From: Gammaproteobacteria bacterium
GTDB lineage: Bacteria; Pseudomonadota; Gammaproteobacteria; SZUA-152
Assembly: GCA_021647505.1 (NCBI GenBank)
Contig: JAKIUN010000025.1
Coordinates: 1 to 47,413 of the forward strand
DNA: 47,413 nt
Reading direction: 5' to 3'
Position numbers and translations under genes: made by a program. Shown here piece by piece: positions 10,070 to 30,148 of this stretch (position 1 is its first letter; each line of letters starts with the position of its first letter). The notes beneath the pieces were generated by a model. That model was given only the letters and a program-made list of their open reading frames with translations. It did not search any database and had not been told where the DNA came from.

Positions 10070-11794
<1,725 letters not shown>

Positions 11795-11897: not shown

Positions 11898-13214
11898 TTA
11901 GCCACGGTTTTCCTGCTGGCCCCGGACTTTTTTGTACACGCTCAACGCCGAGTAAATGTTTAAAAACAACAACAAGGATGAAAAAGCGAAAAATATTGCC
12001 AGAGGATACAAAAACCAGAGTGGTTCAAATACACCGCCGAGGAGTAAAAGCAGTGATAATCCATGCAGATAAAATTGCCGGAGAGTCCACCGATCCTGGA
12101 TGATTTCCTTCATGTTAGGCAATTTTATTCGAGCCCTGTTTTGGCTTTGCAAATGCAGCCAGATGAGGAAAGGAACAATTTTATACAGCATGCCATTGAC
12201 CACCGACACGACAAAGCCGGCGATAAAAAGGATGCCGAGCAGATAGCCAAATCCATGCCAGTTCGCCAGTGCCGGCCATAGTTGCCCGGCCATCCAGAGG
12301 AGTGAGCATGCCAGAAGGCTATACATGGCAAGGTTCCAAAACCGTAATGTGACGTCCTTAAGGCGTCTCCGTCGGCGTCTTTGCAGGTAAAGGGTTGTAC
12401 CGGCAAACAGGGCGAGGCCGGCAGCGAGTGCTGAGGACAGGGCGCCCATCAGCAAGGTCTGTGTTGCGGGCTCGACAATGGGTAGCAGAGACAGGCTGGC
12501 CCACAACACCAGTCCTGTGAGTATCAGCTTTGTCAGCCAGCGTTGCATCCACTGCGGATAGCGGGGAGTCATTTGAAACATGGGTACAACCTCATAGGCA
12601 ACGCCGATAACCAGAACACCCATCCATCCTATGAGGCCCCAAGCCAGATGGACGTCAGTCCATGATTTTGACAAGCCGGTGTCGAAATTCCAGATGTGCT
12701 CAGCGGCGAGCCTCAGCCCAAGGACAACAGCAACCACGAGTGAGCCAACGGCCAACCACATGCCGCTGACGGTTGAGTTGTGTGTCTTTGCCTGCGTCAG
12801 GGAAAAGATGTTAACGACGGTGAACAGCAAAAAACCAGCGCCCAGGAAAAACACGGAAAGTTGTATGGCCGGGTTATTTTCCAGCAACAAACCGCCGGCC
12901 AGAACCAGGGCTCCCAGGGTTAACAGAATATGAATGATGGTGCTGACCAGAAGTGGTCGTGGCATGGGCGAGCCTGTCAGCACCGGGAGCATTTGTGATA
13001 TTGCACCGACCATAATCAGGGTGATATAACCCAGGGCTATAAGGTGCGTTGCCGCGAGTGTCGCGGGTGTCCATCGGCTTAGCAGAGTGTCTGGCCCATA
13101 GCCAATGAAGACGACCGCTGTCAGGATGCCGAACAATGGCGCGGTGAGGAAAAAGCGCAAAGGCACGGAAAGTGGCGGGGCCTGGGCTAGTGAGAGTCCG
13201 GATCGCGTCGTCAT
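11898..13214 (-). CDS. NnrS-like / heme-copper-oxidase-I-like 12-TM membrane protein
   Basis: About 438 residues of almost entirely hydrophobic sequence, some 12 membrane helices. Histidines sit at helix ends in oxidase/NnrS-like patterns: THLIALGYITLIMVGAISQMLP, DVHLAWGLIGWMGVL followed by YEVVPMF, and NWHGFGYLLG. It resembles the NnrS and heme-copper oxidase subunit I group, but I cannot place it in one family with certainty; an NO-tolerance or NO-handling role is inferred from its place directly upstream of nirS. ATG 13214 precedes the first conserved stretch; an in-frame TTG at 13283 has a better AGGAG site and would add 23 residues. No FNR box is visible upstream. Confidence 0.6.
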   Translation of the reverse strand: MTTRSGLSLAQAPPLSVPLRFFLTAPLFGILTAVVFIGYGPDTLLSRWTPATLAATHLIALGYITLIMVGAISQMLPVLTGSPMPRPLLVSTIIHILLTLGALVLAGGLLLENNPAIQLSVFFLGAGFLLFTVVNIFSLTQAKTHNSTVSGMWLAVGSLVVAVVLGLRLAAEHIWNFDTGLSKSWTDVHLAWGLIGWMGVLVIGVAYEVVPMFQMTPRYPQWMQRWLTKLILTGLVLWASLSLLPIVEPATQTLLMGALSSALAAGLALFAGTTLYLQRRRRRRLKDVTLRFWNLAMYSLLACSLLWMAGQLWPALANWHGFGYLLGILFIAGFVVSVVNGMLYKIVPFLIWLHLQSQNRARIKLPNMKEIIQDRWTLRQFYLHGLSLLLLLGGVFEPLWFLYPLAIFFAFSSLLLFLNIYSALSVYKKVRGQQENRG

Positions 13215-13562
13215 CTTGGTTGTATTGTTGTTAGAAGGTTGTTGTCCATAGCTGCGCTTGTTGTAAAGTGCGTTTTCCTGCAATCTTCTCCTTGATCGCA
13301 AGCGCCGGCCATACAGTCTGTGGTGAGGTCAGGAGGCTGCGAACCTAACCTTGCCGGGCTGAAAACCCTATGGATAGCGACTTGGGAAAGTGCGCGCTCC
13401 TCAATCCAGCCTAAATCACTTCGTTCGTCAAATAGCCGGGCTATTCTCTTCAAGTGATAAGCTTATGTGATCTCTCTGGACTGAATTTCCCGAGCTTGCT
13501 GCGGGGTGGTATTCTTCGCTATCAGTAATATTCACCGCAAACGATTAAGTCTGGCAGTTTTC
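13215..13562. other. gene-free leader with nested hairpin
   Basis: No convincing gene. It holds a nested inverted repeat on the leader side of the NnrS-like gene: 7-bp outer arms (13415-13421 and 13452-13458) around 7-bp inner arms (13431-13437 and 13439-13445). No known riboswitch or RNA family was recognised. Confidence 0.4.
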
Positions 13563-13708: not shown

Positions 13709-14437
13709 CTAGCTTTCGGGTGTTTCCATTGCGATACCAACCGCTTTCTTTGCGATGTCGTCATTTTTTCGCCAAACAAATATTTCAAAAAGGGTCTGCT
13801 TACCTTCGCGGATACAATGTCTATATCCATACTCATCCAGGAGTGTATACAGAGGAAAGGGTTCCCGGCTATGCAATATGCGCAGATAGTGGCCGGGTGT
13901 CAGTGTTTCAATGGCCTCCAGAATTTTTTCCATGGGGCCAGGGGGTTCGAGTTCGCTGACATTCAGCACTCGTTCTTGTTCCATCTGGAGATGCCTCTTT
14001 TTTTCATGTTTTTGAATGTGTGCCAGTATTTTCTCCTGGTCACCTGCCAGTACATCATCCGCCATGGGATAGAGGATATTTTCTTCCTTGGTATTGTGTT
14101 GTCGCATCATGACCAGCAGGGTTTCGGATGAGCCGAGAAAATGATCAGCGTCCTGCGTTTTGATATCATCCTGCATGTCTTTCATGAGTTGCCGCATATC
14201 ATCGTGCTCCAGGCGCATTACCCGTGTGGGGCCTGCTGCATTTGCGGAGTGTTTGTTGAGTGCAGGAAACAGAATATCCTCTTCTTTGAGGAAGTGTTCA
14301 TCCATTTCTTCAATGAATCTTGTCAACGTCTCTTTCGCTTGCCACCATTCATGTCGCTGAACGTGTTCCTCACTGCGAAAAAAAAGCTCGTCACAACGTA
14401 CATGATCCGATGAAAAGGTGTCGCTGATCTTTTCCAT
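13709..14437 (-). CDS. hemerythrin-like / DUF2249 protein
   Basis: 242 residues. The N-terminal hemerythrin four-helix domain has all expected di-iron ligands: H12 (SSDH), H48 and E52 (HFLKEE), H78 (LEHDD), H114 and E118 (HNTKEE). A linker leads to a C-terminal DUF2249 domain (EPPGPMEKILEAIETLTPGHYLRILHSREPFPL). Such proteins are linked to NO sensing or repair of NO-damaged iron centres. ATG 14437 is chosen because GAGGAC precedes it and the hemerythrin fold begins at once; the frame extends to 14485. An FNR/DNR box lies 64 bp upstream, as expected for an NO-response gene. The exact role (sensor, scavenger or repair) is open. Confidence 0.88.
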   Translation of the reverse strand: MEKISDTFSSDHVRCDELFFRSEEHVQRHEWWQAKETLTRFIEEMDEHFLKEEDILFPALNKHSANAAGPTRVMRLEHDDMRQLMKDMQDDIKTQDADHFLGSSETLLVMMRQHNTKEENILYPMADDVLAGDQEKILAHIQKHEKKRHLQMEQERVLNVSELEPPGPMEKILEAIETLTPGHYLRILHSREPFPLYTLLDEYGYRHCIREGKQTLFEIFVWRKNDDIAKKAVGIAMETPES

Positions 14438-14500
14438 GCTGTCCTCTTCATCTCCTTGAGAAGGTGTCTCTCTTGTATAATCCATTCACCAAATCGTACA

Positions 14501-15186: not shown

Positions 15187-15245
15187 GGCGCAGTGTGAAG
15201 TATGATTTATTTTTTGTCCGAGGCAATCAGGTAATAGTGACAACG

Positions 15246-16295
15246 ATGAATACATCTCAAGAAGTAATGGCGACTCGTAATGGTGAAAAACAGATAGCCT
15301 ATTGGCTCCTTGCGGTGTGCGCTGCGATTTTTTTCATGATCGTTTTGGGTGGCGTTACACGCCTGACGCACTCTGGCCTTTCCATGGTCGAGTGGGAGCC
15401 TATTATGGGGATTGTTCCTCCACTAAACCAGGCCGAATGGGAGGCGACATTTGAGAAATACAAGCAGTTTCCAGAGTATCAGTTAAACCTGGGTATGGAT
15501 CTTGACGGGTTTAAGTCTATCTTTTTTCTAGAGTATGTACACCGCGTATGGGGGCGGATGATCGGCCTGCTGTTCTTGCTTCCGTTTTTGTATTTCCTCG
15601 TCAAGGGTCATATCACAAAGCCCATGATGCCAAAGATGGTGATCATGTTCGTGCTCGGTGGGCTACAGGGAGTGATGGGCTGGTATATGGTAAAAAGCGG
15701 ACTCGTGAATGACCCGCAAGTCAGCCAATACCGGTTGACCGTACACTTGACGGCGGCTTTTGTTATTTATGCCTATATTTTCTGGATGGCAATGAATCTC
15801 TTGTTCACCAGACCCAAGCCGCATGTCATCGATGCCAAGCCGTTACAGCGTTTTGCATGGTTCGTGACGGGCTTGTTGAGTGTAACCATTATCTCCGGTG
15901 GATTCGTGGCGGGTCTCAAGGCCGGTCTGGCCTACAATACCTTTCCGCTGATGGATGGCCATTTTATTCCGCATAACATGTTCGCCCTGGAGCCCTGGTT
16001 CCGGAATTTCTTTGATAATATTGCTGCGGTGCAATTCAATCACCGCCTGCTTGCTGAAATTTCGTTGATTGTTGCCGCTGTCCTGTGGTTTATGTCACGG
16101 CGTTACCACCTGACCGCCCGCGCCCGCACGGCATTTCACCTGTTGCTGGCCATGACAGGGGTGCAAGTCGTACTGGGCGTGGCGACGTTATTGCTTGTGG
16201 TTCCTACATGGTTGGGCGCCACTCACCAGGGCGGTGCCGTTGTTTTGTTCACCCTTGCACTAAATGCTAATCATGCACTATTGACCAACAGATAG
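15246..16295 (+). CDS. ctaA: heme A synthase, Cox15 type
   Basis: Membrane enzyme converting heme o to heme a. About 349 residues and eight membrane helices, of the Cox15 type without paired cysteines: LGGVTRLTHSGLSMVEWEPIMGIVPPLN, the heme-binding EYVHRVWGRMIGL, and NHRLLAEI and ATHQGGAVVLFTLAL for the other His ligands. The frame opens at GTG 15195, but the FNR box at 15173 would then overlap its leader, so ATG 15246 is preferred (ATG 15267 is also possible). A second, cysteine-containing CtaA is at 29135. With ctaB also boxed, heme a supply seems tied to NO or low-oxygen conditions. Confidence 0.92.
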   Translation: MNTSQEVMATRNGEKQIAYWLLAVCAAIFFMIVLGGVTRLTHSGLSMVEWEPIMGIVPPLNQAEWEATFEKYKQFPEYQLNLGMDLDGFKSIFFLEYVHRVWGRMIGLLFLLPFLYFLVKGHITKPMMPKMVIMFVLGGLQGVMGWYMVKSGLVNDPQVSQYRLTVHLTAAFVIYAYIFWMAMNLLFTRPKPHVIDAKPLQRFAWFVTGLLSVTIISGGFVAGLKAGLAYNTFPLMDGHFIPHNMFALEPWFRNFFDNIAAVQFNHRLLAEISLIVAAVLWFMSRRYHLTARARTAFHLLLAMTGVQVVLGVATLLLVVPTWLGATHQGGAVVLFTLALNANHALLTNR

Positions 16296-16775: not shown

Positions 16776-17150
16776 TTATTGCAATCCATTCATAAACTCC
16801 ATCATCTCATCAAGCTTCTCCCCTTTCAGCTTCATGTTGGGCATGGTTGTTTTCGCATCGGGGTCTCCGGTCAATTCCTTGAGCGCTTTCTTGCCGTCAC
16901 CGAGCCACAGGCGCATGTTAGCATCATCCCAGATAAAGTCGGCATTTTTCAGGCTCTTGCTATATTTGCTGAAGCTGGTCGAACCGGCTTTGTTTCCCAT
17001 GAGATTTGTCAGGCCAGGCCCAACCTTGTTCGCTGTACCAAAATCGTGACACGCCTTGCACTTAGCCTCGATGCCAGCGTTGGCGTTCACACTTAGAAAG
17101 GCGCTGGCAGTAATAATGGTGACAGCCGCTGTTTTGATCATCGTATTCAT
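16776..17150 (-). CDS. class I cytochrome c, periplasmic
   Basis: 124-residue monoheme cytochrome c with a signal peptide (cleavage near NANAG, residues 22-26) and CKACH (31-35). GPGLTNLMGNKAG is typical of class I cytochromes, and the axial Met is probably in TTMPNMKLKG. An AGGAGG site lies just before the ATG. An FNR/DNR box lies 70 bp upstream, divergent from the sNOR promoter region. It probably carries electrons to NirS or to the CuA site of NorS; which one cannot be read from sequence. Confidence 0.9.
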   Translation of the reverse strand: MNTMIKTAAVTIITASAFLSVNANAGIEAKCKACHDFGTANKVGPGLTNLMGNKAGSTSFSKYSKSLKNADFIWDDANMRLWLGDGKKALKELTGDPDAKTTMPNMKLKGEKLDEMMEFMNGLQ

Positions 17151-17799: not shown

Positions 17800-17964
17800 A
17801 TGCCAGACACTGACAAAGCGAACGAAGAGCCAGAACGCATTTCACCAATGCAGTCGGTCTTGGATAATCCCTTTTTGCTGCTTTTTATCGGCGTGGTGGT
17901 GCCGACGGTTTTTTATCTCATATGGGGCATTATGGAACTGCTTTCCATCCCGGTAGCTCAATAA
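17800..17964 (+). CDS. one-helix small subunit of the sNOR cluster
   Basis: 54 residues with a polar N-terminus (MPDTDKANEEPERISP) and one membrane helix (about 22-48, LLLFIGVVVPTVFYLIWGIMELL). A very strong AGGAGGAG site lies 6 nt before ATG 17800, which fixes this start over the upstream one at 17746. It precedes norS by 30 bp in the same operon. The single helix before a CuA subunit recalls subunit IIa of ba3-type oxidases, so it is probably a structural subunit. That is inference from size and position, since no motif identifies it. Confidence 0.7.
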   Translation: MPDTDKANEEPERISPMQSVLDNPFLLLFIGVVVPTVFYLIWGIMELLSIPVAQ

Positions 17965-17994
17965 ACCAATAATGATTTAAGAGGGAGGAAGACT

Positions 17995-18543
17995 ATGTCT
18001 ACCCATAATACCCTAACCCCCCCACCGAATGATTGGTGGCGACATCCCATCGGGCGAGATGAGCTTCTCTGGATCAGTATTGCCGCTGCCTGGTGTGTGA
18101 TCATGACCTTCATGATGATCTACTGGTATTTTGCCGGCAATCAGAATCAGGCGGGTGAGGCCTACCGTATCAGCCCGGAAGCCTTTGCGGCGAAGGCCGA
18201 AGAAATGGTGGATAAATACACGATTCGGACGGAGACGGAGCTTGAGGTGCCGGTAGTGGCAGTACCACCGGGGGGCGATGTCTATATCGCTTCCAGTCAG
18301 TATCAGTGGAACGTGATACCGGAGTTGAAGCTGGGCGAGACGTACCGGTTTCACCTGTCATCGGTGGATGTGAATCACGGCTTTTCGCTTCAACCGATCA
18401 ATATAAATCTTCAGCTTGTCCCGGGTTATGACTATGTGCTGAATTTCACGCCAAATGCCGTCGGTGAATACAATATAGTCTGTAATGAGTATTGTGGCCT
18501 TGCTCACCACGCCATGGTCGGCAGACTCTACGTTGTCGAATAG
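17995..18543 (+). CDS. norS: NorS, CuA subunit of sNOR-type nitric oxide reductase
   Basis: Subunit II-like protein of 182 residues: one membrane helix (25-46) and a periplasmic cupredoxin domain. All CuA ligands are present: H128 (DVNHGF), C163, E165, C167, H171 and M174 in CNEYCGLAHHAM. It would take electrons from a cytochrome c and pass them to NorY. The short, one-helix form is that of B-type oxidases. The norS-norY-senC order is that reported for the sNOR cluster of ammonia-oxidising bacteria. GGGAGG precedes the ATG. A true ba3 oxidase is the alternative, but the NorY active site argues against it. Confidence 0.85.
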   Translation: MSTHNTLTPPPNDWWRHPIGRDELLWISIAAAWCVIMTFMMIYWYFAGNQNQAGEAYRISPEAFAAKAEEMVDKYTIRTETELEVPVVAVPPGGDVYIASSQYQWNVIPELKLGETYRFHLSSVDVNHGFSLQPININLQLVPGYDYVLNFTPNAVGEYNIVCNEYCGLAHHAMVGRLYVVE

Positions 18544-18558
18544 GGGGAGGAAAAAATA

Positions 18559-20250
18559 ATGTCTAATGATTCTGAATTCCGTACCTGTCCTGACACCGGT
18601 CTACGCATTCATCTGCCAGCTGAAAAGCTGATGAAGGCCAATGCCGTTGCGGCGGTTGTCTTCCTGTTGATTGGTGGTATTTTTGGTCTGGCCGTGGCTC
18701 TGACACGCTGGCCGGCTGTGCATCTGTTACCTGCTGAGTGGTTTTATATCGCCCTGACGGCACATGGTGTCGATGTCTTGGTGGTATGGATTATCTTCTT
18801 CGAGATGGCGATTTTGTATTTTACGTCCACGGTGCTGCTTAACAGCCGCTTAGCGACGCCCAAAGTAGGGTGGATTGCTTTTGTGCTCATGTTGGTCGGC
18901 GCGGTGATGGCAAATATAGTGATCCTCGATGGCTCATCGACGGTGATGTTCACCTCCTACCCGCCACTCAAGGCCAATCCACTATTCTACCTGGGGTTGA
19001 TTCTGTTCGCGGTGGGGGCGTTATTGGTGTGTTTTGTTTTTCTGGGCACATTGGTCGTTGCCAAGCACGAAAAGACCTATGAAGGGTCTCTACCGCTGGT
19101 TGTGTTTGGCGCCTTGATAGCGGCGATCATCGCCGTATTCACCATTGCCAGTGGTGCGATCATCCTGATTCCCACTTTTCTCTGGTCGCTTGGCTTGGTG
19201 GGTGATATCGACCCGCAGATGTATCGCCTGGTGTGGTGGGCCTTCGGCCATTCCTCGCAGCAGATCAACATGGCGGCGCAGATTGCCATCTGGTACGCCA
19301 TTGCTGCCTTGTTGTTCGGTGCCAAGCCTCTGTCCGAGAAGGTCAGCCGTATGGCCTTCTTCCTCTATCTGCTCGCACTACAGCTCGGCTCTGCGCATCA
19401 CCTGTTGTCTGATCCTGGCGGCAGCATGTCATTCCGGGTCTTCAACACCAGCTACGCCATGTACATCGCCGTACTGGGCAGCATGATCCATGCCTTCACC
19501 ATTCCCGGCTCGATTGAAGCGGCGCAGCGAGAGAAGGGCTTGAACAATGGTCTGTTCGAATGGTTACGCAAGGCGCCGTGGGATAATCCGGTGTTCTCCG
19601 GGATGTTCCTGTCACTGGTTTTGTTCGGCTTTATCGGCGGCATCACCGGCGTCACCATGAGTGTTCAGCAGATCAACATGATCATTCACAATACAGCCTA
19701 TGTGCCTGGCCATTTTCACGGTACGGTTGCGGCGGGCACAACCCTGTCATTCATGGCCCTGACCTATTGGCTGTTGCCTGTGCTGTGGCGCCGGGACATA
19801 TTTATGCCCAAGGTGGCACAATGGTCCACCTGGATGTTTGGTCTGGGTATGGGTGGATTTGCTATCTTTTTCATGGCGGCGGGACACCTTGGTGTGGCGC
19901 GACGGCACTGGGACATGACCTTCGCGGGCAACCCCCTGGGCTTTGAGTATTCCGCTACGGTCTATCTGTTCATGGGTGCTGCGGGCATCACTGCGGTGAT
20001 TGGTTCTCTCGGCGCCTTGGCTTACATTCTCTGCACCGTAGGGACAATATTGTTCGGTAAGCGCAGGCCTGAAAATGCTGCACCGGTTGTTTCTTCAGAA
20101 GGTGTTGAGGCGATCACAAGCTACGGAAACCGTAGCAAGGGTTGGGAAGCCCCTGGTTCTCTGGTACTGGTCGCCGTGTTTATGGTGTTCCTGGTTGTCT
20201 ACTACTTTGCTAACTGGAAGTACTTGGGGAGTGTCTGGGGAATCAGATAG
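18559..20250 (+). CDS. norY: NorY, catalytic subunit of sNOR-type nitric oxide reductase
   Basis: Heme-copper superfamily subunit I, 563 residues and about 13-14 helices. Ligands: H69 (TAHGVD, low-spin heme), H231 on TM6, H280-H281 (SAHHLLSD) for the metal B site, and H385/H387 (PGHFHGT) for the hemes. The TM6 motif reads GHSSQQ, so the residue four after H231, Tyr in B- and A-type oxidases, is Gln235; loss of that tyrosine is the mark of NO reductases of this superfamily. It should reduce NO to N2O. It starts 15 bp after norS and is followed by a strong terminator. Oxygen reduction cannot be ruled out from sequence alone. Confidence 0.83.
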   Translation: MSNDSEFRTCPDTGLRIHLPAEKLMKANAVAAVVFLLIGGIFGLAVALTRWPAVHLLPAEWFYIALTAHGVDVLVVWIIFFEMAILYFTSTVLLNSRLATPKVGWIAFVLMLVGAVMANIVILDGSSTVMFTSYPPLKANPLFYLGLILFAVGALLVCFVFLGTLVVAKHEKTYEGSLPLVVFGALIAAIIAVFTIASGAIILIPTFLWSLGLVGDIDPQMYRLVWWAFGHSSQQINMAAQIAIWYAIAALLFGAKPLSEKVSRMAFFLYLLALQLGSAHHLLSDPGGSMSFRVFNTSYAMYIAVLGSMIHAFTIPGSIEAAQREKGLNNGLFEWLRKAPWDNPVFSGMFLSLVLFGFIGGITGVTMSVQQINMIIHNTAYVPGHFHGTVAAGTTLSFMALTYWLLPVLWRRDIFMPKVAQWSTWMFGLGMGGFAIFFMAAGHLGVARRHWDMTFAGNPLGFEYSATVYLFMGAAGITAVIGSLGALAYILCTVGTILFGKRRPENAAPVVSSEGVEAITSYGNRSKGWEAPGSLVLVAVFMVFLVVYYFANWKYLGSVWGIR

Positions 20251-20341
20251 CGCGGACAGTCTCCATGCCGGTGTGAGAAGGGAGCTTTATTCCTCCCATC
20301 CTTCTTTCACCCGATGGTTTTCGCAGAGTCTGATATCCATG

Positions 20342-20371
20342 CCACCGACGCAATGTCGGTGGTTTTTTTTT
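20342..20371 (+). terminator. rho-independent terminator after norY
   Basis: 8-bp stem CCACCGAC/GTCGGTGG with a 5-nt loop, followed by nine T. It closes the 54-aa/norS/norY transcript about 90 bp after norY and separates senC. The rest of 20251-20617 holds no gene; a half-matching FNR-like site (TTGAT at 20495-20510) is too weak to call. Confidence 0.93.
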
Positions 20372-20617
20372 GTCCGCTGCCAGCAAAGTGTGTACACGTT
20401 CTTCAGGTTTTGTCGATCAATATGGGGCTCGAAATTGCTCCTTGTGGGCAAGATGATGCCGTGCAATGATGGCTTAGGATTTGGCTTCGGCAGTGATTGA
20501 TCGAAACATAAAATTTTCGAATGATAGAAAGGTACTTTTGACGCTACAATAGACTTTCCCGTGTAAATACCGGGCTGGATATTTTCAGGCCACAGAGACA
20601 ACGGAGGCATAGAAAGC

Positions 20618-21505
20618 GTGCGGCATCCATCATTGATACAAATTGTTGCTTTCCTGATGGCGTTTCTATGTACATACAGTGTTGCGCATAGTCAGGAAAC
20701 CTCTGTGGCGACTTCCTCCTTTGCCGACAATGAAGCGGAAAACACAGATGACACCGCATTATCACGTCATATTGATGACCAGACGGCACTGGAGTTCAGT
20801 CAAGCCGCGATAGGTCGTCCGCTGAGTGATTACAAGCTGTTTGACCGTGAAGGAAAGCCCGTAAAATTTACCGATTACCGGGGAAAACCACTGGTCATTA
20901 GCATGATCTATTCCAGTTGCTTTCATACCTGCCCGATTATTACCCAATACCTCGCGCGTGCGGTAGATCTGGCGCGCAGCGCAGTGGGCGAAGACGGCTT
21001 TAATATCGTCAGTATTGGTTTTGATGCCCGTTATGACCGGCCGGACTCGATGAAAACATTCGCCCGTCAGCGGGGTGTCTCCGGGGATCCTTATTGGGAG
21101 TTTCTTAGTGCGACAGATGCGGCTGTAATGCAGCAATTATCGGATAATCTCGGTTTTATCTTTACTAAAACACAAACTGGGTTTGATCATCTTGCGCAAG
21201 TGACCGTGGTCGATAGTGAAGGAAAAATATACAGACAGGTCTACGGGGAAAATTTTAATCCCCCCATCTTGGTGGAAACATTAAAGGAACTTATTTTTGG
21301 CAATACGGCGTCGTCGGAAATAAGTTTTGAGCGCCTTGTCAACAAGGTGCGCTTGTGGTGCACGATCTATGATCCAGCAAGTAATACCTACCGCTTTGAT
21401 TATTCGATGGTCGCTGGTCTTGGCGTCACGTTTATTATTCTTTCCATTTTCATATATGTCATTGTCCGTATGTGGGTAAGGTTTTTGTCCACGGGCAGTG
21501 CCTGA
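20618..21505 (+). CDS. senC: Sco/SenC copper chaperone of the sNOR cluster
   Basis: 295-residue Sco-family protein with a signal peptide (cleavage near AHSQ), Cu-binding CFHTC (C101, C105) and the distal His in GFDHLAQ. It has a C-terminal extension ending in a membrane helix (about 268-288), unusual because Sco proteins are normally anchored at the N-terminus. It probably loads copper into NorS CuA and/or the NorY site. The start is GTG 20618 with GGAGG upstream. It follows norY but lies behind the terminator, so it needs its own promoter or read-through. Confidence 0.88.
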   Translation: MRHPSLIQIVAFLMAFLCTYSVAHSQETSVATSSFADNEAENTDDTALSRHIDDQTALEFSQAAIGRPLSDYKLFDREGKPVKFTDYRGKPLVISMIYSSCFHTCPIITQYLARAVDLARSAVGEDGFNIVSIGFDARYDRPDSMKTFARQRGVSGDPYWEFLSATDAAVMQQLSDNLGFIFTKTQTGFDHLAQVTVVDSEGKIYRQVYGENFNPPILVETLKELIFGNTASSEISFERLVNKVRLWCTIYDPASNTYRFDYSMVAGLGVTFIILSIFIYVIVRMWVRFLSTGSA

Positions 21506-21707
21506 GTGGTCAAATCTAATTATTCGTGAGTACGCAATTGATCCCAAAGTCCATTACTTATACGCATGTACACATGCAAAACATGCTAATAGAGCCGCGT
21601 TTTATGCTTTGCCCAACGAGCAGCTGTTTTTGATGGGTCGACAACTTTGAATCCCCGTTCGGCCTATCCAGAAGAATAGAGGTTTCCCATTGATAAGGGC
21701 TGCTTTG

Positions 21708-23264
21708 ATGAGGTTGAAAAAGGCGGGATTATGCCTGTTTCAGGCCCTGGAACGATTGATTGGCCATACTTTTGCTGGGTTTAGTAATCCCTTTTATAGC
21801 TTGGGAGCCCTGGCGTTCTACCTTTTTTATATTATTGTTGGAAGCGGTATTTATTTATTTATTTTCTATGAGCCTTCTATCAAGGGTAGTTTTGATAGCG
21901 TTGACTATTTGACCCATGACCAGTGGTATTTTGGCGGCATCATGCGCAGCCTTCACCGTTACGCATCGGATGCCCTGGTGTTGGTCATGGTCTTGCATAT
22001 ACTTCGCGAGTTTGTTTTGGATCGTTACCGGGGCGCTCGTTGGTTTACCTGGGTGACCGGTTTCCCGGCCTTGGTCTTGATTTTTATCAGTGGTTTGGTT
22101 GGTTACTGGCTGGTGTGGGATACGTTAGGACAGTATATTGCCGTGCGATCAACCGAGTGGCTGGACTGGCTGCCAATATTCTCTGAACCCTCGGCACGAA
22201 ACTTCCTGACCAATTCCAGTGTTTCCGACCTGTTCTTTCGTCTCATCCTCATTGGCCATATTGCGATTTCCATCTTTCTCTTTGTCGCCTTGATGGTGCA
22301 TGTGAAAAATATCAGCAAGGCGATCATCAGTCCACCACGGAACCTTGCCGTTGGAACTTTTTTGTGCCTGCTGATCTTGTCGCTGGTGCTGCCGGCAGTC
22401 AGTCAGGAGCGTGCGGATTTGAGCCAGGTGCCCGGTATTATCAATATTGATTGGTTCTACATGTTTGCCTATCCCTTGATGGATCGCTGGTCAATGGGGG
22501 GCGTGTGGGCGCTGGTGGCGGTGATAACGCTATTGTTGCTGTTCTTGCCTTGGTTACCCCCGCAGCGTAATCGGCCTGTGGCGAAGGTATTGCTGGAAAA
22601 GTGCAGTGGCTGTAACCTGTGTGTCATGGATTGTCCCTATGAGGCGATCATCCTGCAACCACGTACTGATGGGCACCCCAGCTATGTTCGTGAAGCGGTA
22701 GTGGTTGCGGATAACTGTGTCGGCTGTGGCATTTGTACCGGTGCCTGTCCGTTCTCCCGGCCGCCGCGAGGGGAGGAGTTGTTGACAACAGGGATTGATA
22801 TACCCTCGCGGGACATTCAGCATCTCTACCGTGTAAGCGCTCTGGCGCTGGAGGCTTTAAATTCCAACGCTGCTTCAAGCACTAAGGTGCTGGTCTATGG
22901 TTGTGATCATGGAGCGGCCCTGGGGAACCTGGATATCCAAGACATCGCGGTGGTCAGCTTGCCCTGCACGGCGGCATTGCCAGTCTCATTCATTGGCTAT
23001 ATGTTACGTCATGGTGCCGATGGTATTTTTCTGACGGGTTGCCGTAAGGGGGACTGTTACTATCGGCTGGGTAATATCTGGATAGAGCAGCGTCTGAGCC
23101 TTGATTATCAATCTCGGCCCCATTTACCTCGGTGGATTTCCCGCGAACGCGTCGGTTATTGCTGGGCCGGGCCGGGTGACGAAAGGCACCTGACAACGGC
23201 GATTGACCGCTTTCAGAAAGGCTTGCATGTTGCTTCAGCAGTCGTCAACAGCGAGAGTGAGTAG
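21708..23264 (+). CDS. cytochrome b6 - ferredoxin - MvhD fusion protein 1
   Basis: About 518 residues in three parts. First, a cytochrome b6-like membrane part with both H-x13-H pairs (H83/H97 in SLHRYASD...VLH; H184/H198), family marks RYRGARWFTW and GYWLVWD, and extra helices to about residue 285. Second, a ferredoxin part with two 4Fe-4S motifs (CSGCNLCVMDCP from 299, CVGCGICTGACP from 337). Third, an MvhD-like part (about 392-480) with Cys in VYGCDHG, LPCTAAL and TGCRKGDC. It probably links the quinone pool to a low-potential iron-sulfur chain. ATG 21708 is used; an in-frame TTG at 21690 is possible. The partner is unknown: no HdrA or hydrogenase is nearby. Confidence 0.85.
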   Translation: MRLKKAGLCLFQALERLIGHTFAGFSNPFYSLGALAFYLFYIIVGSGIYLFIFYEPSIKGSFDSVDYLTHDQWYFGGIMRSLHRYASDALVLVMVLHILREFVLDRYRGARWFTWVTGFPALVLIFISGLVGYWLVWDTLGQYIAVRSTEWLDWLPIFSEPSARNFLTNSSVSDLFFRLILIGHIAISIFLFVALMVHVKNISKAIISPPRNLAVGTFLCLLILSLVLPAVSQERADLSQVPGIINIDWFYMFAYPLMDRWSMGGVWALVAVITLLLLFLPWLPPQRNRPVAKVLLEKCSGCNLCVMDCPYEAIILQPRTDGHPSYVREAVVVADNCVGCGICTGACPFSRPPRGEELLTTGIDIPSRDIQHLYRVSALALEALNSNAASSTKVLVYGCDHGAALGNLDIQDIAVVSLPCTAALPVSFIGYMLRHGADGIFLTGCRKGDCYYRLGNIWIEQRLSLDYQSRPHLPRWISRERVGYCWAGPGDERHLTTAIDRFQKGLHVASAVVNSESE

Positions 23265-23333
23265 AAAGATGATTCCCTTTACTGACCACGTGCCGATTCC
23301 GGGCTCCTGCGAACAGGTTTCCAGCGAAAAACA

Positions 23334-23347
23334 TTGATCTAGATCAT
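23334..23347 (+). promoter_or_regulatory. FNR/DNR-type box before fusion protein 2
   Basis: TTGATCTAGATCAT, 13 of 14 match, ending 74 bp before the start of the second fusion gene. It gives the second fusion and its downstream genes a promoter of their own. Confidence 0.72.
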
Positions 23348-23421
23348 GCTCAGTCAAGCGATAAATTGGTTAATCTTGATCGTGCCAATGGGGATTTTCC
23401 CGGACTCGGGAGTTATGCGAC

Positions 23422-25011
23422 TTGCTTAAACTATTTCAGGATACCGGGCGCCGGGCATTCTTGTTTGCTGATCGTTTGGCAAATGCCATTTTTGGCTCGA
23501 AGTGGAATCCCCTATATCACCTGGGCACGATGGCCTTTTTCTTCTTCTACATCGTGCTTGCCAGCGGCATCTACATCTATATCTTCTACGACACGAGTGT
23601 TGTGGATGCGTATACCTCCGTTGAATACATGACGCATGAACAATGGTATTTGGCGGGTATCATGCGCAGCCTGCACCGTTACGCATCGGATGCGATGGTT
23701 GCCACCATGGTTCTGCACTTGCTGCGCGGCTTTTTTTTCGACCGTTATCGTGGCGCGCGCTGGTTTTCCTGGACAACCGGCATTCCGATGCTGGTAATGG
23801 TCTTCGCTATCGGTATTACCGGCTATTGGCTGGTGTGGGATCTGCTGGGACAATTCGTTGCCGTTCGTACCTCTGAATGGATCGACTGGTTGCCCATTAT
23901 CGCCGAGCCCACGGCGCGTAATTTTCTGACCAATACCAGCGTCACGGATCTCTTCTTCAGACTCCTGGTGGTGATCCACGTGGGCCTGCCACTGATGCTG
24001 CTGGGCTTGATGCTCCTGCATGTCACCCGACTCAACGATGCCAAGATCAATCCCCCGGCCGGGCTGGCGATAGGGGCTACCGTGGCGTTAGTGGTGCTGT
24101 CACTGGTCAAGCCGGCCGTCAGCCATGAGGCGGCAGACCTGAGCACGCTACCGACCCAATTGAACCTGGACTGGTTTTATCTGTTTATCTATCCGTTGAT
24201 GGATCGGTGGTCGATGGGCACCGTGTGGGCTTTGGTTGGTGGCGGCCTGCTGTTGCTGGCGCTGCTGCCCTGGATGCCGCCAAAGCGCCGTGAGCCCGTG
24301 GCTGTGGTCTATCCCGATGATTGCAGTGGGTGTAATCTGTGCATTGTGGACTGTCCCTATGAGGCCATCATGCTGGAAGCGAGAACGGGGGCGACAAGTG
24401 CAGGCCGCTATCAGCACCTGCCGATTGCCGTGGTTGACGAGAGCAAGTGTGTCAGTTGCGGTATCTGCACAGGCTCCTGCCCGTCCTCCACCCCCTTTCG
24501 TCAAACCGATGAAATACGAACCGGCATCGATATGCCGCATAAAAATATTCAGGATCTGCATGCCGCAACTCGCGAGGCACTCACCAAACTAACAGGACAG
24601 ACCAAGGTACTGGTTTATGGTTGCGACCATGGCGTCGAGATGAGCAAAGTGATGCAGGCCGAGGTTGCCATGATCAGCCTGCCCTGTACTGGCGCATTAC
24701 CGCCGTCGTTCATCGTTTATGCCTTGCGGCAGGGTGCCGACGGTGTTTTTCTTACCGGTTGCCGCAGTGGTGATTGCTTTCACCGTCTCGGAAATGACTG
24801 GGTGGATCAGCGCATTACCCATCATCGTAAGCCCTATCTGAAGCGTTCGGTTCCTCGCGAGCGGGTCAGACGATACTGGGCTGCGACCTCGGATCACAAA
24901 CAACTGGTCAACGAAATCGAATCCTTTTGTCAATCATTGCGGGATATGTCCCCGGCGGCTGCAACGGCTGAGGCACAAGATGTGTTGCCGGGCAGTGAGA
25001 CGCGGGAGTAA
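23422..25011 (+). CDS. cytochrome b6 - ferredoxin - MvhD fusion protein 2
   Basis: Paralogue of the preceding gene with the same order of parts, 529 residues: cytochrome b6-like with H85/H99 and H186/H200, ferredoxin motifs from C301 (CSGCNLCIVDCP) and C343 (CVSCGICTGSCP), and an MvhD-like part with VYGCDHG, LPCTGAL and TGCRSGDC. The two proteins align over their whole length, so this is a tandem duplication that has diverged; they may form a heterodimer or act at different potentials. The start is taken as TTG 23422 (GGGAG about 10 nt upstream) because no in-frame ATG precedes the conserved first helix. The 166-aa gene follows after 4 bp. Confidence 0.85.
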   Translation: MLKLFQDTGRRAFLFADRLANAIFGSKWNPLYHLGTMAFFFFYIVLASGIYIYIFYDTSVVDAYTSVEYMTHEQWYLAGIMRSLHRYASDAMVATMVLHLLRGFFFDRYRGARWFSWTTGIPMLVMVFAIGITGYWLVWDLLGQFVAVRTSEWIDWLPIIAEPTARNFLTNTSVTDLFFRLLVVIHVGLPLMLLGLMLLHVTRLNDAKINPPAGLAIGATVALVVLSLVKPAVSHEAADLSTLPTQLNLDWFYLFIYPLMDRWSMGTVWALVGGGLLLLALLPWMPPKRREPVAVVYPDDCSGCNLCIVDCPYEAIMLEARTGATSAGRYQHLPIAVVDESKCVSCGICTGSCPSSTPFRQTDEIRTGIDMPHKNIQDLHAATREALTKLTGQTKVLVYGCDHGVEMSKVMQAEVAMISLPCTGALPPSFIVYALRQGADGVFLTGCRSGDCFHRLGNDWVDQRITHHRKPYLKRSVPRERVRRYWAATSDHKQLVNEIESFCQSLRDMSPAAATAEAQDVLPGSETRE

Positions 25012-25015
25012 GGCT

Positions 25016-25516
25016 ATGCAGATATTTCAATATCTTGGGCAGGCATTCTGGTACCTTCTTTTTATCGCCTTCATTGGCTATTTTTCTACGTCTCCCGCCT
25101 ATACCTTTATGGAACCGGATCAGTCACTGATTAAGCTTGCCTTTAATCATTCTGGAAAATTAAAACTAGCATGCCGGGAGTTTACGGCGGAAGAACAGGC
25201 CGCAAAGCCGAAACACATGCGTATAAAGTTCGATTGTCCCAGGGAGCGTTCCCCCGTCTATGTGATTATGAAAATTGATGGAAAGCTTATTTTTGAAAAA
25301 ACCATTCGTCCATCGGGTTTTGCAAAGGACTTGTCTTCGCCCTTGTATGAGCGAATTTCACTAAAGACTGGCCAATATCACTTATATCTCGGTATGCGGG
25401 ATCATGTCGATACTGAAGGCCTTGACTATGAGTTTGATGGCTCTGTTACGTTGGCGGCATCGCAAATTCTGGTGATCGGTTTCGATTCTGAATACAATGA
25501 GTTTACATTTCAGTAA
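25016..25516 (+). CDS. membrane-anchored protein with extracytoplasmic domain, unknown
   Basis: 166 residues, not recognised. One N-terminal helix (residues 6-24, LGQAFWYLLFIAFIGYF) anchors a polar, beta-rich domain with two Cys (LACREF and FDCPRE) that could form a disulfide. The domain shows none of the CuA ligands. The ATG is 4 bp after the stop of fusion protein 2 and inside an AGTAAGG-type ribosome site, so it is surely in the same operon. Its position before an oxidase-like subunit I suggests an accessory or subunit II-like role; this is inference. ATG 25016 is preferred over an upstream start inside the fusion gene. Confidence 0.7.
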   Translation: MQIFQYLGQAFWYLLFIAFIGYFSTSPAYTFMEPDQSLIKLAFNHSGKLKLACREFTAEEQAAKPKHMRIKFDCPRERSPVYVIMKIDGKLIFEKTIRPSGFAKDLSSPLYERISLKTGQYHLYLGMRDHVDTEGLDYEFDGSVTLAASQILVIGFDSEYNEFTFQ

Positions 25517-25666
25517 ATTATCGGCGGGTGTTCATGTGGCAGTTAAGTAGCAGGTGCTATAAGAGACAAACCGGAACAACAATGATATTAAAGAAGAGCT
25601 TGCCGGCACTATAACCGCAGTATTGCTGTGTGTACAGAAGATGACGTTAGCTTACGAGGGCTATTA

Positions 25667-27043
25667 ATGAGCAAAAATTATTCCTATGTATTGCCAGAGC
25701 CTGATGAAGAATTACGCCGACTTTCCGCAGGTTGGCTGATATTGGGCATTGCGGCGCTGGTAGCTGCGGGCTTGCTCGCCATCCTTCTAGTCATGGCGCG
25801 CACGCCCTATATCAAGGATATTTTCCCCTGGGACAATTTCTTCAAGACCGCGATGGTTGTTCACGTCGATCTTTCCGTGCTGATGTGGTTCTTGCCCTGT
25901 GCTGGTATTATATGGAGTTATAATTCCACCCGCCGGTATCTCAAAACAGGGTGGGCGGCGTTGTGGCTGGCATCCATTGGTACGGTCATTGTTGCGGTAT
26001 CACCATTTATTGGCTCTGGCGAGCCCCTGATGAATAATTACTTTCCCGTCATTGACAGTCCGGTGTTTCTTAGCGGGATGGTCTTGTTCGGGGTCGGTTT
26101 TACGCTGCTGGTTATGCGTAGCCTGAGTCTTGGCTGTTCACCGATCGGGCCATTGAACAGTGGCACAGCGGGACTGCGTATTGGTATATACACGGCCTCT
26201 ATTTCCTCGATTGCTGCGGTGGGCGCATTGATTTGGGCTTATTTTCTCATCCCTGATTCCGTGCAGGGCTGGGAGTATTATGAGGTTTTATTCTGGGGCT
26301 CCGGTCATGTCTTGCAGTTTACGCATACCCTGCTGATGATCGTAGTCTGGCTGTGGCTGGCCAGTGTCGGCGGTGTGCGCCTCACACTGTCTCCGCGCCT
26401 GACCAGTATCATCTTTGGCCTCGGCGTCGTGACGATCCTTGTCACGCCTTACATTTACCTCAGCATCGATATCATGTCGGTTGAGTCTGCGGTCTGGTTC
26501 ACCCGCTTGATGACCGCTGGCGGTGGTTTGGCCGCGCTACCTTTTGGTCTGGTCGTGATCATTGGCATGTACCTGGCCGGCCCGCCTTCTGCGCAAGACC
26601 GGGTTCTTCGGATGACGCTTTTTTATTCACTCCTTTTATTCGGAGTCGGTGGTGTTCTTGGTTTCATGATACGAGAAAGCAGCACGCTGATTACGGCCCA
26701 TTACCATGGGTCAAATGGCGCGATTACTGTGGCCTTTATGGGAATGGTCTATTTCTTGTTACCCAAGATCGGTTTTGATAAAGTACAAATGCGTTTGGCC
26801 AGGATCCAGGTGCATGCCTTTGGGCTGGGCCAGCTGCTACATGTTTTGGGGCTTGCCTGGGCCGGAGGCTACGGTATGCAACGAAAAATCTCTGGAGAAG
26901 GGCAGAGCCTGGATAATTTCCAGCAAACCGCCGGTATGGCCATTATGGGCATTGGTGGCTTGATTGCTGTCATTGGAGGCGTCTTGTTCCTGTATCTCGT
27001 GGTGCGTGCCATGTGGCCAAAAAAGCACCAGACGTCGGTATGA
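25667..27043 (+). CDS. divergent heme-copper oxidase/NO reductase subunit I-like protein
   Basis: 458 residues and about 12 helices, the size of NorB. Heme-type histidines are kept: H66 (VVHVDLSVLMWFL) and H345/H347 (TAHYHGSNGA). TM6 has H214 and H220 in SGHVLQFTH. Between H220 and H345 there is no His at all, so the TM7 His-His pair that binds CuB or FeB is missing; the aligned stretch reads TPYIYLSI. A further H383/H392 pair lies in VHAFGLGQLLHVLGLAWAGG. It may be an electron-transfer subunit or a new type of NO-active enzyme. ATG 25667 follows GAGGG. It ends the operon of fusion protein 2. Confidence 0.7.
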   Translation: MSKNYSYVLPEPDEELRRLSAGWLILGIAALVAAGLLAILLVMARTPYIKDIFPWDNFFKTAMVVHVDLSVLMWFLPCAGIIWSYNSTRRYLKTGWAALWLASIGTVIVAVSPFIGSGEPLMNNYFPVIDSPVFLSGMVLFGVGFTLLVMRSLSLGCSPIGPLNSGTAGLRIGIYTASISSIAAVGALIWAYFLIPDSVQGWEYYEVLFWGSGHVLQFTHTLLMIVVWLWLASVGGVRLTLSPRLTSIIFGLGVVTILVTPYIYLSIDIMSVESAVWFTRLMTAGGGLAALPFGLVVIIGMYLAGPPSAQDRVLRMTLFYSLLLFGVGGVLGFMIRESSTLITAHYHGSNGAITVAFMGMVYFLLPKIGFDKVQMRLARIQVHAFGLGQLLHVLGLAWAGGYGMQRKISGEGQSLDNFQQTAGMAIMGIGGLIAVIGGVLFLYLVVRAMWPKKHQTSV

Positions 27044-27448: not shown

Positions 27449-28138
27449 ATGAGAAATGCCTCCATTTTGGCGAACATCCCCTTATTCAAAGAGTTGGATT
27501 CCAGTCAGCTTGCAAAGATTGCATCCGCCACCCACGAGATCAGCGTCAATAAAGGGCGCATCCTGTTCAATAAAGGCGACCCTTCTGATGGCTTCTATGT
27601 TGTCATCTCTGGCCGCATAAAGCTTTCATTTGTATCGAGAGACGGGAAAGAGTTTATCGCAGAAATATTTGGGCCCAACCAGAGTTTTGGGGAAGCGGTG
27701 ATGTTTCTGGGCAAGCCATATCCTGTCTGTGCCCAGACATTGATGGATTCGAAGATTCTACATGTACCAAAGAGCGTTGTATTTGATGGCGTCGACCATA
27801 ACTCGGGATTTGCCCGTCGAGTGATAGCCGGGCTTTGTGCCCGGCTGGTGGATAGAATTCAAACACTGGAATACCTGACGGTGTATTCCAGTATCCAGAA
27901 GGTCATTGGCTATCTGTTACGGGAAATAGAATTGGCCGAGTCGGCAAAGAATACAACATCTAACGAAGCTGACGTGCTCCTCGCTGTTAATAAAGCCACA
28001 CTTGCTGCGCAGTTGAATCTTACCCCGGAAACGCTCTCCCGGGTTTTGCACAGACTGGCGGATGAGGACTTGATACGCGTTGAAGGAAAGACCATTCATA
28101 TTTGCCATGTGCAGAAAATGCGTGATTTCAGCAGTTGA
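27449..28138 (+). CDS. Crp/Fnr-family regulator, DNR-like
   Basis: 229 residues: an N-terminal cyclic-nucleotide-type sensor domain (about 10-130), a dimer helix, and a C-terminal helix-turn-helix (about 180-203) with PETLSRVLHRL. The E194, S197, R198 pattern is the one by which FNR and DNR read TTGAT half sites, matching the boxes across this window. The N-terminus has no Cys cluster for a 4Fe-4S centre, so it is not FNR itself; DNR-type NO sensing through heme is likely. It is the best candidate for regulator of nirS, ctaB, ctaA, sNOR, cytochrome c and the second fusion operon. Confidence 0.88.
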   Translation: MRNASILANIPLFKELDSSQLAKIASATHEISVNKGRILFNKGDPSDGFYVVISGRIKLSFVSRDGKEFIAEIFGPNQSFGEAVMFLGKPYPVCAQTLMDSKILHVPKSVVFDGVDHNSGFARRVIAGLCARLVDRIQTLEYLTVYSSIQKVIGYLLREIELAESAKNTTSNEADVLLAVNKATLAAQLNLTPETLSRVLHRLADEDLIRVEGKTIHICHVQKMRDFSS

Positions 28139-28304: not shown

Positions 28305-28802
28305 TCACGGACATAGATAAGGATAACAAGGAGGAGGGGGAGAAGGGAGATTAGAGGGATCAACGCACAAAGGATCAAATGGGGGAAGTGGGCTAGGTAA
28401 CGGCCATACATACTTTTTCACTATTGTAAAGTTTAAGCGGTTTGATTGTCGTGCAGATTTCGACCCCACGGCAACTCTTTCGTTTCTAATCCAGCCGCAA
28501 TGTATGGAATCAGGCGGTACTCTTCCCACGACGATGGTCAGAACCCCTTGGCTATTAGTCGTACCGATGAGTTGGCCAACGTGTGTGTGGATTCCCGGCT
28601 TGCCATTAAACTGTGTATGGGTTCGCCATGAGTAGACATTTTTGTTTGCTTGTATTGGGTTGGTAGAAATCGTATGTATCGCATAACTAGTACGATCATA
28701 CCAAAGGTTGTAGACCGTTGTGCCGTAGCGGGACGAGAAGGTCTGAGCAAATACACTGCTGCAGAAAAGAGAGAGCATCATAAATATTAATATTTTTTTC
28801 AT
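28305..28802 (-). CDS. secreted hypothetical protein with Pro-rich tail
   Basis: 165 residues, not recognised. The signal peptide is clear (KKILIFMMLSLFCSSVFAQ, cleavage after residue 19). The mature part contains HTHVGQLIGTTNSQGVLTIVVGR and ends in a Pro- and Cys-rich tail (SPPPPCYPYLCP). Four Cys in the mature part suggest disulfides. A GGG-type ribosome site lies before the ATG. It stands alone on the minus strand between the regulator and the second CtaA gene; nothing links it to NO metabolism. Confidence 0.68.
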   Translation of the reverse strand: MKKILIFMMLSLFCSSVFAQTFSSRYGTTVYNLWYDRTSYAIHTISTNPIQANKNVYSWRTHTQFNGKPGIHTHVGQLIGTTNSQGVLTIVVGRVPPDSIHCGWIRNERVAVGSKSARQSNRLNFTIVKKYVWPLPSPLPPFDPLCVDPSNLPSPPPPCYPYLCP

Positions 28803-29134: not shown

Positions 29135-30148
29135 ATGTCTAGTCGCCTCTCTTCCTTATTTTCCAAGCTCGTTACCGTATCCCTCGTTCTGTCATTTGCG
29201 TTGATTGTCTTGAGTTCCCACATGCGTTTGTCGAACCAGGGGCTGGGATGTGACGACTGGCCTGATTGCTATGGCCGTATTGATATCGTCAAGTATGCCG
29301 GAGATATTGCTGCCACGGCTTCACGCAGCCTGCAACCGGGGACGCTGGCGCCACCGACTGCGGTGGAGCGGGCACACCGGGGGGTTGCCAGTGCTTTACT
29401 GGTTCTTATCGCGGCGCTTGTGATCGTCGCCTGGCGTCAGCGCAAGGACTCGGGGCCGGGCATGACCCTGCCACTTGCGGCCCTGGCTGTCACCCTGTTT
29501 CTGGCCGTGCTGGGCGTGTTGTACGGATCACCGCTCCTCAGGCCGCCCGTGGTCATGGCCAACCTGCTGGGGGGTATGGCGCTGCTTGGACTGCTTTGGT
29601 GGCTGCATCTGTCCCTGAGTCGGGGGCCGGCAGTGGATGTTTCAGCGGGGGCGGAAACACTACGAAAGTGGGCGTTACTCGGGCTGGCGCTGATTGTTGT
29701 GCAGACGGTATTGGGCGGTTGGGTGAGTTCAAATTTTTCGGCTCTGGCCTGCTCGACATTTCCGCTCTGCAATGGCCTGCTGTGGCCGGAGATGGATATC
29801 CCCGCAGGCTTTACGCTGCGTCATCTATTGGCCGTCAGCCCTGAGGGGCGGGTGATTGTCGAGCAGGCGGCGACGATGGCTGTGCATATGGTGCATCGCC
29901 TGGGGGCCGTCCTTGTTTTGCTGTTCATGGGCTGGCTGGGCTACCGGGCGCTGAAACTGGGCGGCCGTATCCGGGGCCTGGGCATGGCCATTCTTGCACT
30001 CTTGGCCTTGCAGGTCTTGCTGGGCATGACGATCATTATTTTCAGTGCGCCCCTTGGTGTCGTTGTCACCCATAACGCCACGGCTGCGTTGCTGTGGCTG
30101 ACCCTTCTCGCACTTATCTACCGTCTGCTGCAAAGCCGGCGTCATTAA
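29135..30148 (+). CDS. ctaA: heme A synthase, cysteine-containing CtaA type
   Basis: 337-residue membrane protein with eight helices that oxidises heme o to heme a. Unlike the Cox15-type copy at 15246 it carries paired cysteines in both halves: SNQGLGCDDWPDCYGRI and ALACSTFPLCNGLLWP, known from other CtaA lines to form disulfides. Heme-binding His are in VERAHRGVASAL, VHMVHRLGAVL and VVTHNATAALL. No FNR box is seen, so unlike the other copy it may be expressed under aerobic conditions. The 18-bp palindrome begins on its stop codon. Confidence 0.9.
   Translation: MSSRLSSLFSKLVTVSLVLSFALIVLSSHMRLSNQGLGCDDWPDCYGRIDIVKYAGDIAATASRSLQPGTLAPPTAVERAHRGVASALLVLIAALVIVAWRQRKDSGPGMTLPLAALAVTLFLAVLGVLYGSPLLRPPVVMANLLGGMALLGLLWWLHLSLSRGPAVDVSAGAETLRKWALLGLALIVVQTVLGGWVSSNFSALACSTFPLCNGLLWPEMDIPAGFTLRHLLAVSPEGRVIVEQAATMAVHMVHRLGAVLVLLFMGWLGYRALKLGGRIRGLGMAILALLALQVLLGMTIIIFSAPLGVVVTHNATAALLWLTLLALIYRLLQSRRH

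Follow-up and report, generated by a model that had tools for sequence, protein, structure and literature searches.

A cytochrome b–ferredoxin–MvhD fusion protein and a beta-sandwich partner accompany nitric oxide reductases of the predicted eNOR type

The nitric oxide (NO) reductase eNOR is a recently recognised enzyme of iron oxidisers and denitrifiers that is often misannotated as a cytochrome oxidase. For the source of its electrons and cofactors, the obvious candidate is a pair of genes that goes with it in virtually every genome sampled. The pair was studied here from a gene cluster in contig JAKIUN010000025.1 of a gammaproteobacterial assembly (GCA_021647505.1), positions 1 to 47,413 of which form the whole stretch of DNA analysed here (the window). 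An earlier note, made from the sequence alone, had described on one strand of this window a 54-amino acid (aa) protein (p54), the reductase subunits NorS and NorY, SenC, two tandem three-part fusion proteins (FUS A and B), a 166-aa anchored protein (p166) and a divergent heme-copper protein encoded from position 25667 (HCO2), and had proposed that they serve electron transfer to or from a membrane complex during NO stress or denitrification. That gene set stands: all of the named open reading frames (ORFs) are open on the forward strand, and the domains assigned by Pfam and NCBIfam profile searches agree with it. The sequences further suggest that the reductase is an eNOR, that FUS and p166 probably form one complex, and that this pair would be a dedicated electron-transfer module of the reductase (Table 1).

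FUS is a near-obligate partner of eNOR. Across 274 Gammaproteobacteria genomes, FUS was found in 24 and NorY in 24, with 23 genomes carrying both (Fisher P = 3e-31), and 259 Pseudomonadota genomes gave 32, 29 and 28, respectively; NorY was present in 15 of 15 good-quality non-gammaproteobacterial genomes with FUS. Where NorY occurs alone, the contig ends 21 nucleotides past the NorY match (G285) or just past SenC (G354), and the genomes with FUS alone (G236, G403, G419, G427 and G508) are incomplete or contaminated. The order p54–NorS–NorY–(CtaB)–SenC–FUS–p166–(HCO2) is repeated in about 40 loci of at least two classes, and FUS and NorY distances are correlated (Spearman 0.81, Mantel P 0.001). 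Far from occurring mostly apart from one another and from denitrification genes, the fusions clearly track NorY and nirS. The suggestion that these genes belong together in an NO-reductase cluster was supported for the fusions, p166, HCO2 and the DNR-type regulator; HCO2 is tied less tightly to the module and has a second, independent link to heme A synthesis genes.

Table 1 Positions of the cluster genes, regulatory boxes and neighbouring features in the window
Feature	Position	Strand	Evidence or remark
FNR/DNR box TTGATGTAGATCAA	17631..17644	+	0 mismatches
FNR/DNR box TTGATGTAAATCAA	17725..17738	+	0 mismatches; 62 bases 5' of p54
p54, conserved protein of 54 aa with a single helix, probably a small subunit of eNOR	17800..17964	+	Heads cluster in 31 loci
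NorS, CuA cupredoxin subunit	17995..18543	+	Pfam; CxExCGxxHxxM
NorY, predicted eNOR-type catalytic subunit, Gln235 at His-Tyr tyrosine position	18559..20250	+	Pfam COX1; alignment
SenC/Sco copper chaperone	20618..21505	+	Pfam SCO1
Fusion A, cytochrome b + 2x[4Fe-4S] + MvhD	21708..23264	+	Pfam; ligand alignment
FNR/DNR box TTGATCTAGATCAT ahead of fusion B	23334..23347	+	1 mismatch
Fusion B, cytochrome b + 2x[4Fe-4S] + MvhD, TTG start	23422..25011	+	Pfam; ligand alignment
p166, N-terminal anchor helix + beta-sandwich, probable FUS partner	25016..25516	+	AlphaFold2 model; fusion in L107
HCO2, heme-copper-oxidase fold, both heme sites, without helix-VII CuB ligands	25667..27043	+	Pfam COX1; AlphaFold2
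CRP/FNR-family regulator, DNR-like	27449..28138	+	Pfam, NCBIfam
CtaA1 (COX15), heme A synthase homologue	15195..16295	+	Flanks cluster
CtaA2 (COX15), heme A synthase homologue	29135..30148	+	Flanks cluster
Small cytochrome c oriented divergently to the cluster; may donate to CuA	16776..17150	-	CxxCH present
NirS, cytochrome cd1 nitrite reductase	10070..11779	-	Near cluster
Hemerythrin-DUF2249 protein	13709-14485

The earlier note had called the reductase sNOR, a name that its predicted active site does not bear out. When NorY is aligned with the ba3 oxidase of T. thermophilus (204 bits), Q235 falls on Y237, the helix-VI tyrosine of the His–Tyr pair, and this position is Gln in 33 of 33 homologues, so that the Asn marking sNOR is absent from all of them. 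Because a published table of active-site residues assigns Gln to eNOR, Asn to sNOR, Glu to cNOR and qNOR and Tyr to oxygen reductases (PMC8756737), the reductase is, by this residue, a predicted NO reductase of the eNOR type. The heme and CuB histidines (H69, H231, H280, H281, H385 and H387) are likewise kept in 33 of 33, and the CuA motif of NorS in 32 of 32 homologues as well as in the window protein. Of the K-channel-type residues, Y246, S308 and H311 never vary; Thr stands at position 314 in 32 of 33 sequences, and Val or Ile where ba3 has Y244. The helix-VI Gln, the six metal-ligand histidines and a CuA-bearing subunit II are shared with eNOR, a B-family-derived heme-copper NO reductase whose nearest solved relatives are the B-family ba3 oxidases, and the K-channel-type residues may be shared as well. 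In the literature found, by contrast, eNOR is a two-subunit enzyme, whereas here p54 and the FUS–p166 pair are constant companions.

It could still be argued that the reductase is an sNOR and FUS the unnamed orf1 of norSY-senC-orf1, given the matching order of NorS, NorY, SenC and the next gene (PMC4940428). The invariant Gln already contradicts this reading, the K-channel-type residues also speak against it, sNOR being listed without a proton channel, and we find it hardly credible. Since the enzyme would be an eNOR, the norSY-senC-orf1 literature and the debate on sNOR in ammonia oxidisers (PMC6967387) do not directly apply. The genomes sampled included no ammonia oxidiser in which FUS could be matched to orf1, a weak negative since the ammonia monooxygenase control also gave no match.

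Nearly every eNOR cluster is topped by p54, whose homologues share the motif MQ..LDNPFLLLFLG...PT.FY..WG.ME and which has no Pfam or NCBIfam match at a meaningful score; it is probably an unannotated eNOR subunit.

The description of both large proteins as cytochrome b–ferredoxin–MvhD fusions was borne out by Pfam, which finds a Cytochrome_B domain, two 4Fe-4S domains and an FlpD (MvhD) domain in each window copy, the last scoring 49 and 76 bits against a cut-off of 22. Among NCBIfam models, the ferredoxin–MvhD tail resembles the C terminus of HdrA2 and the membrane part resembles ExtP/ExtQ and cytochrome b6. Across 48 aligned fusions, the heme-b histidines H85, H99, H186 and H200 occur in every sequence, apart from one gap, the eight ferredoxin cysteines are kept except in single truncated or divergent sequences, and the MvhD cysteines C401, C422, C447 and C452 are present in at least 47 of 48. 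Judged by these ligands, FUS is a cytochrome b with two b hemes, two [4Fe-4S] clusters and an MvhD domain. Beyond the four-helix cytochrome b domain comes a stretch whose only PDB matches are b6f subunit IV and the C-terminal region of cytochrome b, each of them weak (E 0.44–1.4) and both aligning the same motif. In it, DWFY, with D and W in 48 of 48, takes the place of the Qo motif PEWY, which is itself absent from FUS. Because this stretch aligns with the PEWY region, a quinone site on the periplasmic side is likely.

FUS thus shares with the cytochrome b of bc1 and b6f complexes the four heme-b histidines, the Cytochrome_B domain and a subunit-IV-like stretch with a PEWY-like motif, but differs in having DWFY for PEWY, in lacking a Rieske or c1 partner in its cluster (no Rieske gene was found among the cluster genes examined) and in being joined to ferredoxin and MvhD parts. 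FUS as a replacement for complex III was rejected, cytochrome c1 of bc1 being present in 24 of 25 of these genomes. The tail likewise matches the C-terminal part of the HdrA2 model and keeps the four MvhD cysteines; FUS, however, lacks the HdrA flavin domain, sits on a membrane cytochrome b and adjoins no hydrogenase or formate dehydrogenase. FUS is the sole MvhD/FlpD-domain protein in 15 of the 24 genomes having one, the window's genome included, and because this is so in most of them it would need no HdrA-type partner; a role as partner of an HdrA/MvhD system was rejected on the same count. A single ORF with cytochrome b6, DMSOR-beta-like FeS and FlpD domains has been tabulated before (RME88945.1, appendix table of PMC8756737), listed there only for its additional C1 cytochrome domain, with neither a function nor a connection to eNOR considered.

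Relatives of the cytochrome b part bear on the direction of electron flow. In G104, far from its eNOR cluster, a gene (L059:448-2436, minus strand) encodes a related cytochrome b fused to [2Fe-2S], FAD and NAD(P) domains, which resembles FUS in joining a cytochrome b part to a cytoplasmic electron-input module and differs from it in that FUS has two [4Fe-4S] and MvhD domains in place of the flavin/NAD(P) module. The eNOR locus of G178 (L100:1672-4212, minus strand) holds a second gene in which the same cytochrome b is followed by domains for flavodoxin, FAD and NAD(P); over its first 864 bases this gene matches the local FUS gene exactly, and it may be a recent module swap or an assembly chimera. 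As these relatives carry NAD(P)H-type flavin modules instead of the ferredoxin–MvhD part, they hint at electron entry from the cytoplasm.

Like p54, p166 matches no Pfam family. Its model consists of one N-terminal helix and a beta-sandwich (AlphaFold2, pLDDT 92), and in 29 of 31 sequences two paired cysteines are either both present or both absent. Compared with the PDB, the fold retrieved generic beta-sandwiches only (Z at most about 9), and no copper or electron-transfer protein stood out; as a homologue of CcoH or of the CcoG tail it was rejected after profile comparison gave no match. In one genome (G179, L107:7887-9935), p166 is the C-terminal part of the FUS polypeptide, a single 682-aa ORF, and the FUS–p166 pair stays together in loci where NorS and NorY lie elsewhere; for both reasons p166 is probably a subunit of FUS in one complex. 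Because a single helix connects the two, p166 would lie across the membrane from MvhD. A small hemerythrin-like protein often adjoins FUS or p166 (L086, L089, L091, L094, L095 and L101; Pfam Hemerythrin in L086). The interval that separates the second fusion from HCO2 in the close relative L031 (12858-13521) is of a size to fit p166, yet no such ORF was called in it; an assembly frameshift is possible.

The explanation we favour, and to which we would give even chances, is that an eNOR made of p54, NorS and NorY has a dedicated two-part membrane module, FUS with p166, that supplies or matures it. The ferredoxin–MvhD part of FUS would lie on the cytoplasmic side and p166 on the periplasmic one. 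A soluble donor in the cytoplasm would deliver electrons to the [2Fe-2S]/[4Fe-4S] clusters of the MvhD end, from where the two b hemes would take them across the membrane to exit at its periplasmic face, at a quinone site and/or to the copper and heme centres of eNOR; in this way the enzyme would be kept supplied or reductively matured under NO stress. Both the direction of the electrons and their acceptor are what we infer, and feeding turnover and maturation are both left in play. The route proposed earlier, from quinol through the cytochrome b, FeS and MvhD proteins to a membrane complex, becomes one option among several, bc1 already giving a generic quinol route to cytochrome c.

Several points tell against the favoured explanation. 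The case is built from sequence, and the sampled genomes are related, many of them metagenome-assembled and several of the non-gammaproteobacterial ones from one family or a few, so that the samples are not independent. No cytoplasmic partner for MvhD was found; the direction rests on two paralogues, of which the G178 gene is possibly chimeric; with bc1 in almost all of these genomes, a supply by way of FUS would be an extra; and the window's genome already has a CcoG-like copper reductase gene at its cbb3 operon, identified by its location behind ccoNOQP and by its ferredoxin region.

That last gene bears on a narrower alternative, in which FUS and p166 carry no turnover electrons and act only in maturation, as an eNOR counterpart of CcoG: to load CuA and the binuclear centre, they would produce Cu(I) or else reduce SenC or heme intermediates. 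We hold this possible, if on balance doubtful. FUS directly follows SenC and stands among CtaB, CtaA and HCO2. CcoG (FixG), the cupric reductase encoded behind cbb3, sits in the membrane and combines two [4Fe-4S] clusters with an Ig-like domain in the periplasm (PMC7558416), the same overall plan as FUS with its beta-sandwich partner, and heme-b periplasmic reductases aid heme-copper oxidases elsewhere (CrpH, PMC13038864). The likeness is nevertheless one of plan: about 58 columns of the generic ferredoxin region of FUS align with CcoG/FixG and there is no FixG family match, CcoG has neither a cytochrome b nor an MvhD domain, and p166 aligns with neither CcoG nor CcoH. A pure metal reductase, moreover, would not need the fully conserved Qo-like motif, and cbb3 has its CcoG already.

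The same motif invites a bolder reading, that quinol is oxidised at the Qo-like site with electron splitting, one electron passing to CuA of NorS and the second one via the b hemes to the ferredoxin–MvhD part in the cytoplasm, NO reduction thereby driving reduction of a low-potential cytoplasmic carrier. DWFY and both b hemes are kept, the cluster is without a Rieske gene, the CuA subunit is always present and the MvhD clusters are presumed cytoplasmic; but the PEWY motif is changed and the neighbouring genes encode no acceptor in the cytoplasm, and we judge it improbable. The same low probability attaches to its fullest form, a single Rieske-free respiratory assembly of FUS–p166 and eNOR in which NO-driven electron bifurcation through a b-type cytochrome couples quinol oxidation at DWFY to NO reduction and to reduction of a cytoplasmic MvhD-type cluster, with HCO2 as a heme-A-carrying part or chaperone. 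FUS and p166 might, finally, be a general NO-stress or repair module that is co-regulated and linked with eNOR and never interacts with it, as their own FNR/DNR boxes in a third of loci and their separation from NorS and NorY in some genomes would allow. Such a module should, however, also occur in nirS genomes without eNOR, and of 32 such genomes only the incomplete G236 has FUS; together with the near-absolute two-way co-occurrence with eNOR across families and classes, this makes the proposal very improbable.

HCO2 is predicted to have a 12-helix COX1 fold (AlphaFold2, pLDDT 87) whose best PDB match is CcoN of cbb3. As the earlier note had observed for the window protein, helix VII has no His, which extends to 16 aligned homologues; H66, H214, H345 and H347 are invariant, and the ligands of both hemes and the helix-VI CuB histidine are kept. 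With the three-histidine CuB/FeB set incomplete, a role as second NO reductase was rejected. Of the 24 NorY genomes, 19 carry HCO2, compared with 11 of the 250 others; in one of those 11 (G121), p166 adjoins HCO2 at a contig end, which makes it probably a cut-off eNOR cluster. Outside eNOR loci, HCO2 stands between or beside ctaA and ctaB near aa3 genes or rpoH (L202, L027 and L028) or, at L199, beside ctaA, sco and nirS. We read HCO2 as a probable heme-only accessory of heme-A-type enzymes, tied to the CtaA/CtaB branch, a part that it would play in the favoured explanation too. Stand-alone copies beside rpoH and/or the ctaA–ctaB genes of aa3 oxidase clusters recur at L202, L027, L026 and L200.

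In the window's genome, which is 98% complete, the COX1 family has three members, CcoN of cbb3, NorY and HCO2, and this inventory holds no aa3 oxidase and no cNOR or qNOR, so that eNOR would be its only NO reductase of the heme-copper superfamily; NorB/qNOR was not found in 11 of 18 genomes inventoried. Two CtaA homologues flank the cluster, the window being the part of the genome searched for CtaA. CtaA/CtaB genes in a genome without an aa3 oxidase raise the possibility that eNOR carries heme A or O, and either eNOR or HCO2 may do so.

The FNR/DNR boxes noted earlier ahead of the reductase genes and the second fusion are there, the two before the cluster perfect and the one before the second fusion with 1 mismatch, and the gene directly after the cluster belongs to the CRP/FNR family. 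The window holds 10 FNR/DNR boxes with at most 1 mismatch against a mean of 2.1 in shuffled sequences, 0 of 100 of which reach 10. Such boxes lie 5' of p54 in 18 of 31 loci and 5' of FUS in 16 of 46 (P = 1e-9), about 5% being expected in each case. Among the Gammaproteobacteria, 20 of 24 NorY genomes have nirS, compared with 32 of the 250 others, and in many loci the gene lies physically near the eNOR cluster.

eNOR and each of the domains are already known. Our literature search, which did not take in the main eNOR paper, found no paper that links MvhD and cytochrome b to NO reductases or describes FUS–p166 with eNOR, and no described NO reductase with a partner of this kind. In practice, FUS–p166 beside a COX1 gene could serve as a metagenome marker that separates eNOR from oxygen reductases.

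Two further proteins of the window have no Pfam match. One of 467 aa (11898-13301, minus strand) adjoins nirS and has relatives near the eNOR clusters L025, L088 and L110; the other, secreted-looking and of 165 aa (28305-28802, minus strand), is kept in L031 (16130-16609). Elsewhere in the sampled genomes, two qNOR-like proteins of ~780 aa (L239, G124:C24; L240, G116:C79) have His-Asn in place of the FeB His-His pair (AHNFYW against GHHWYW in the G178 qNOR), a pattern that presumably resembles that of nitric oxide dismutase (Nod).

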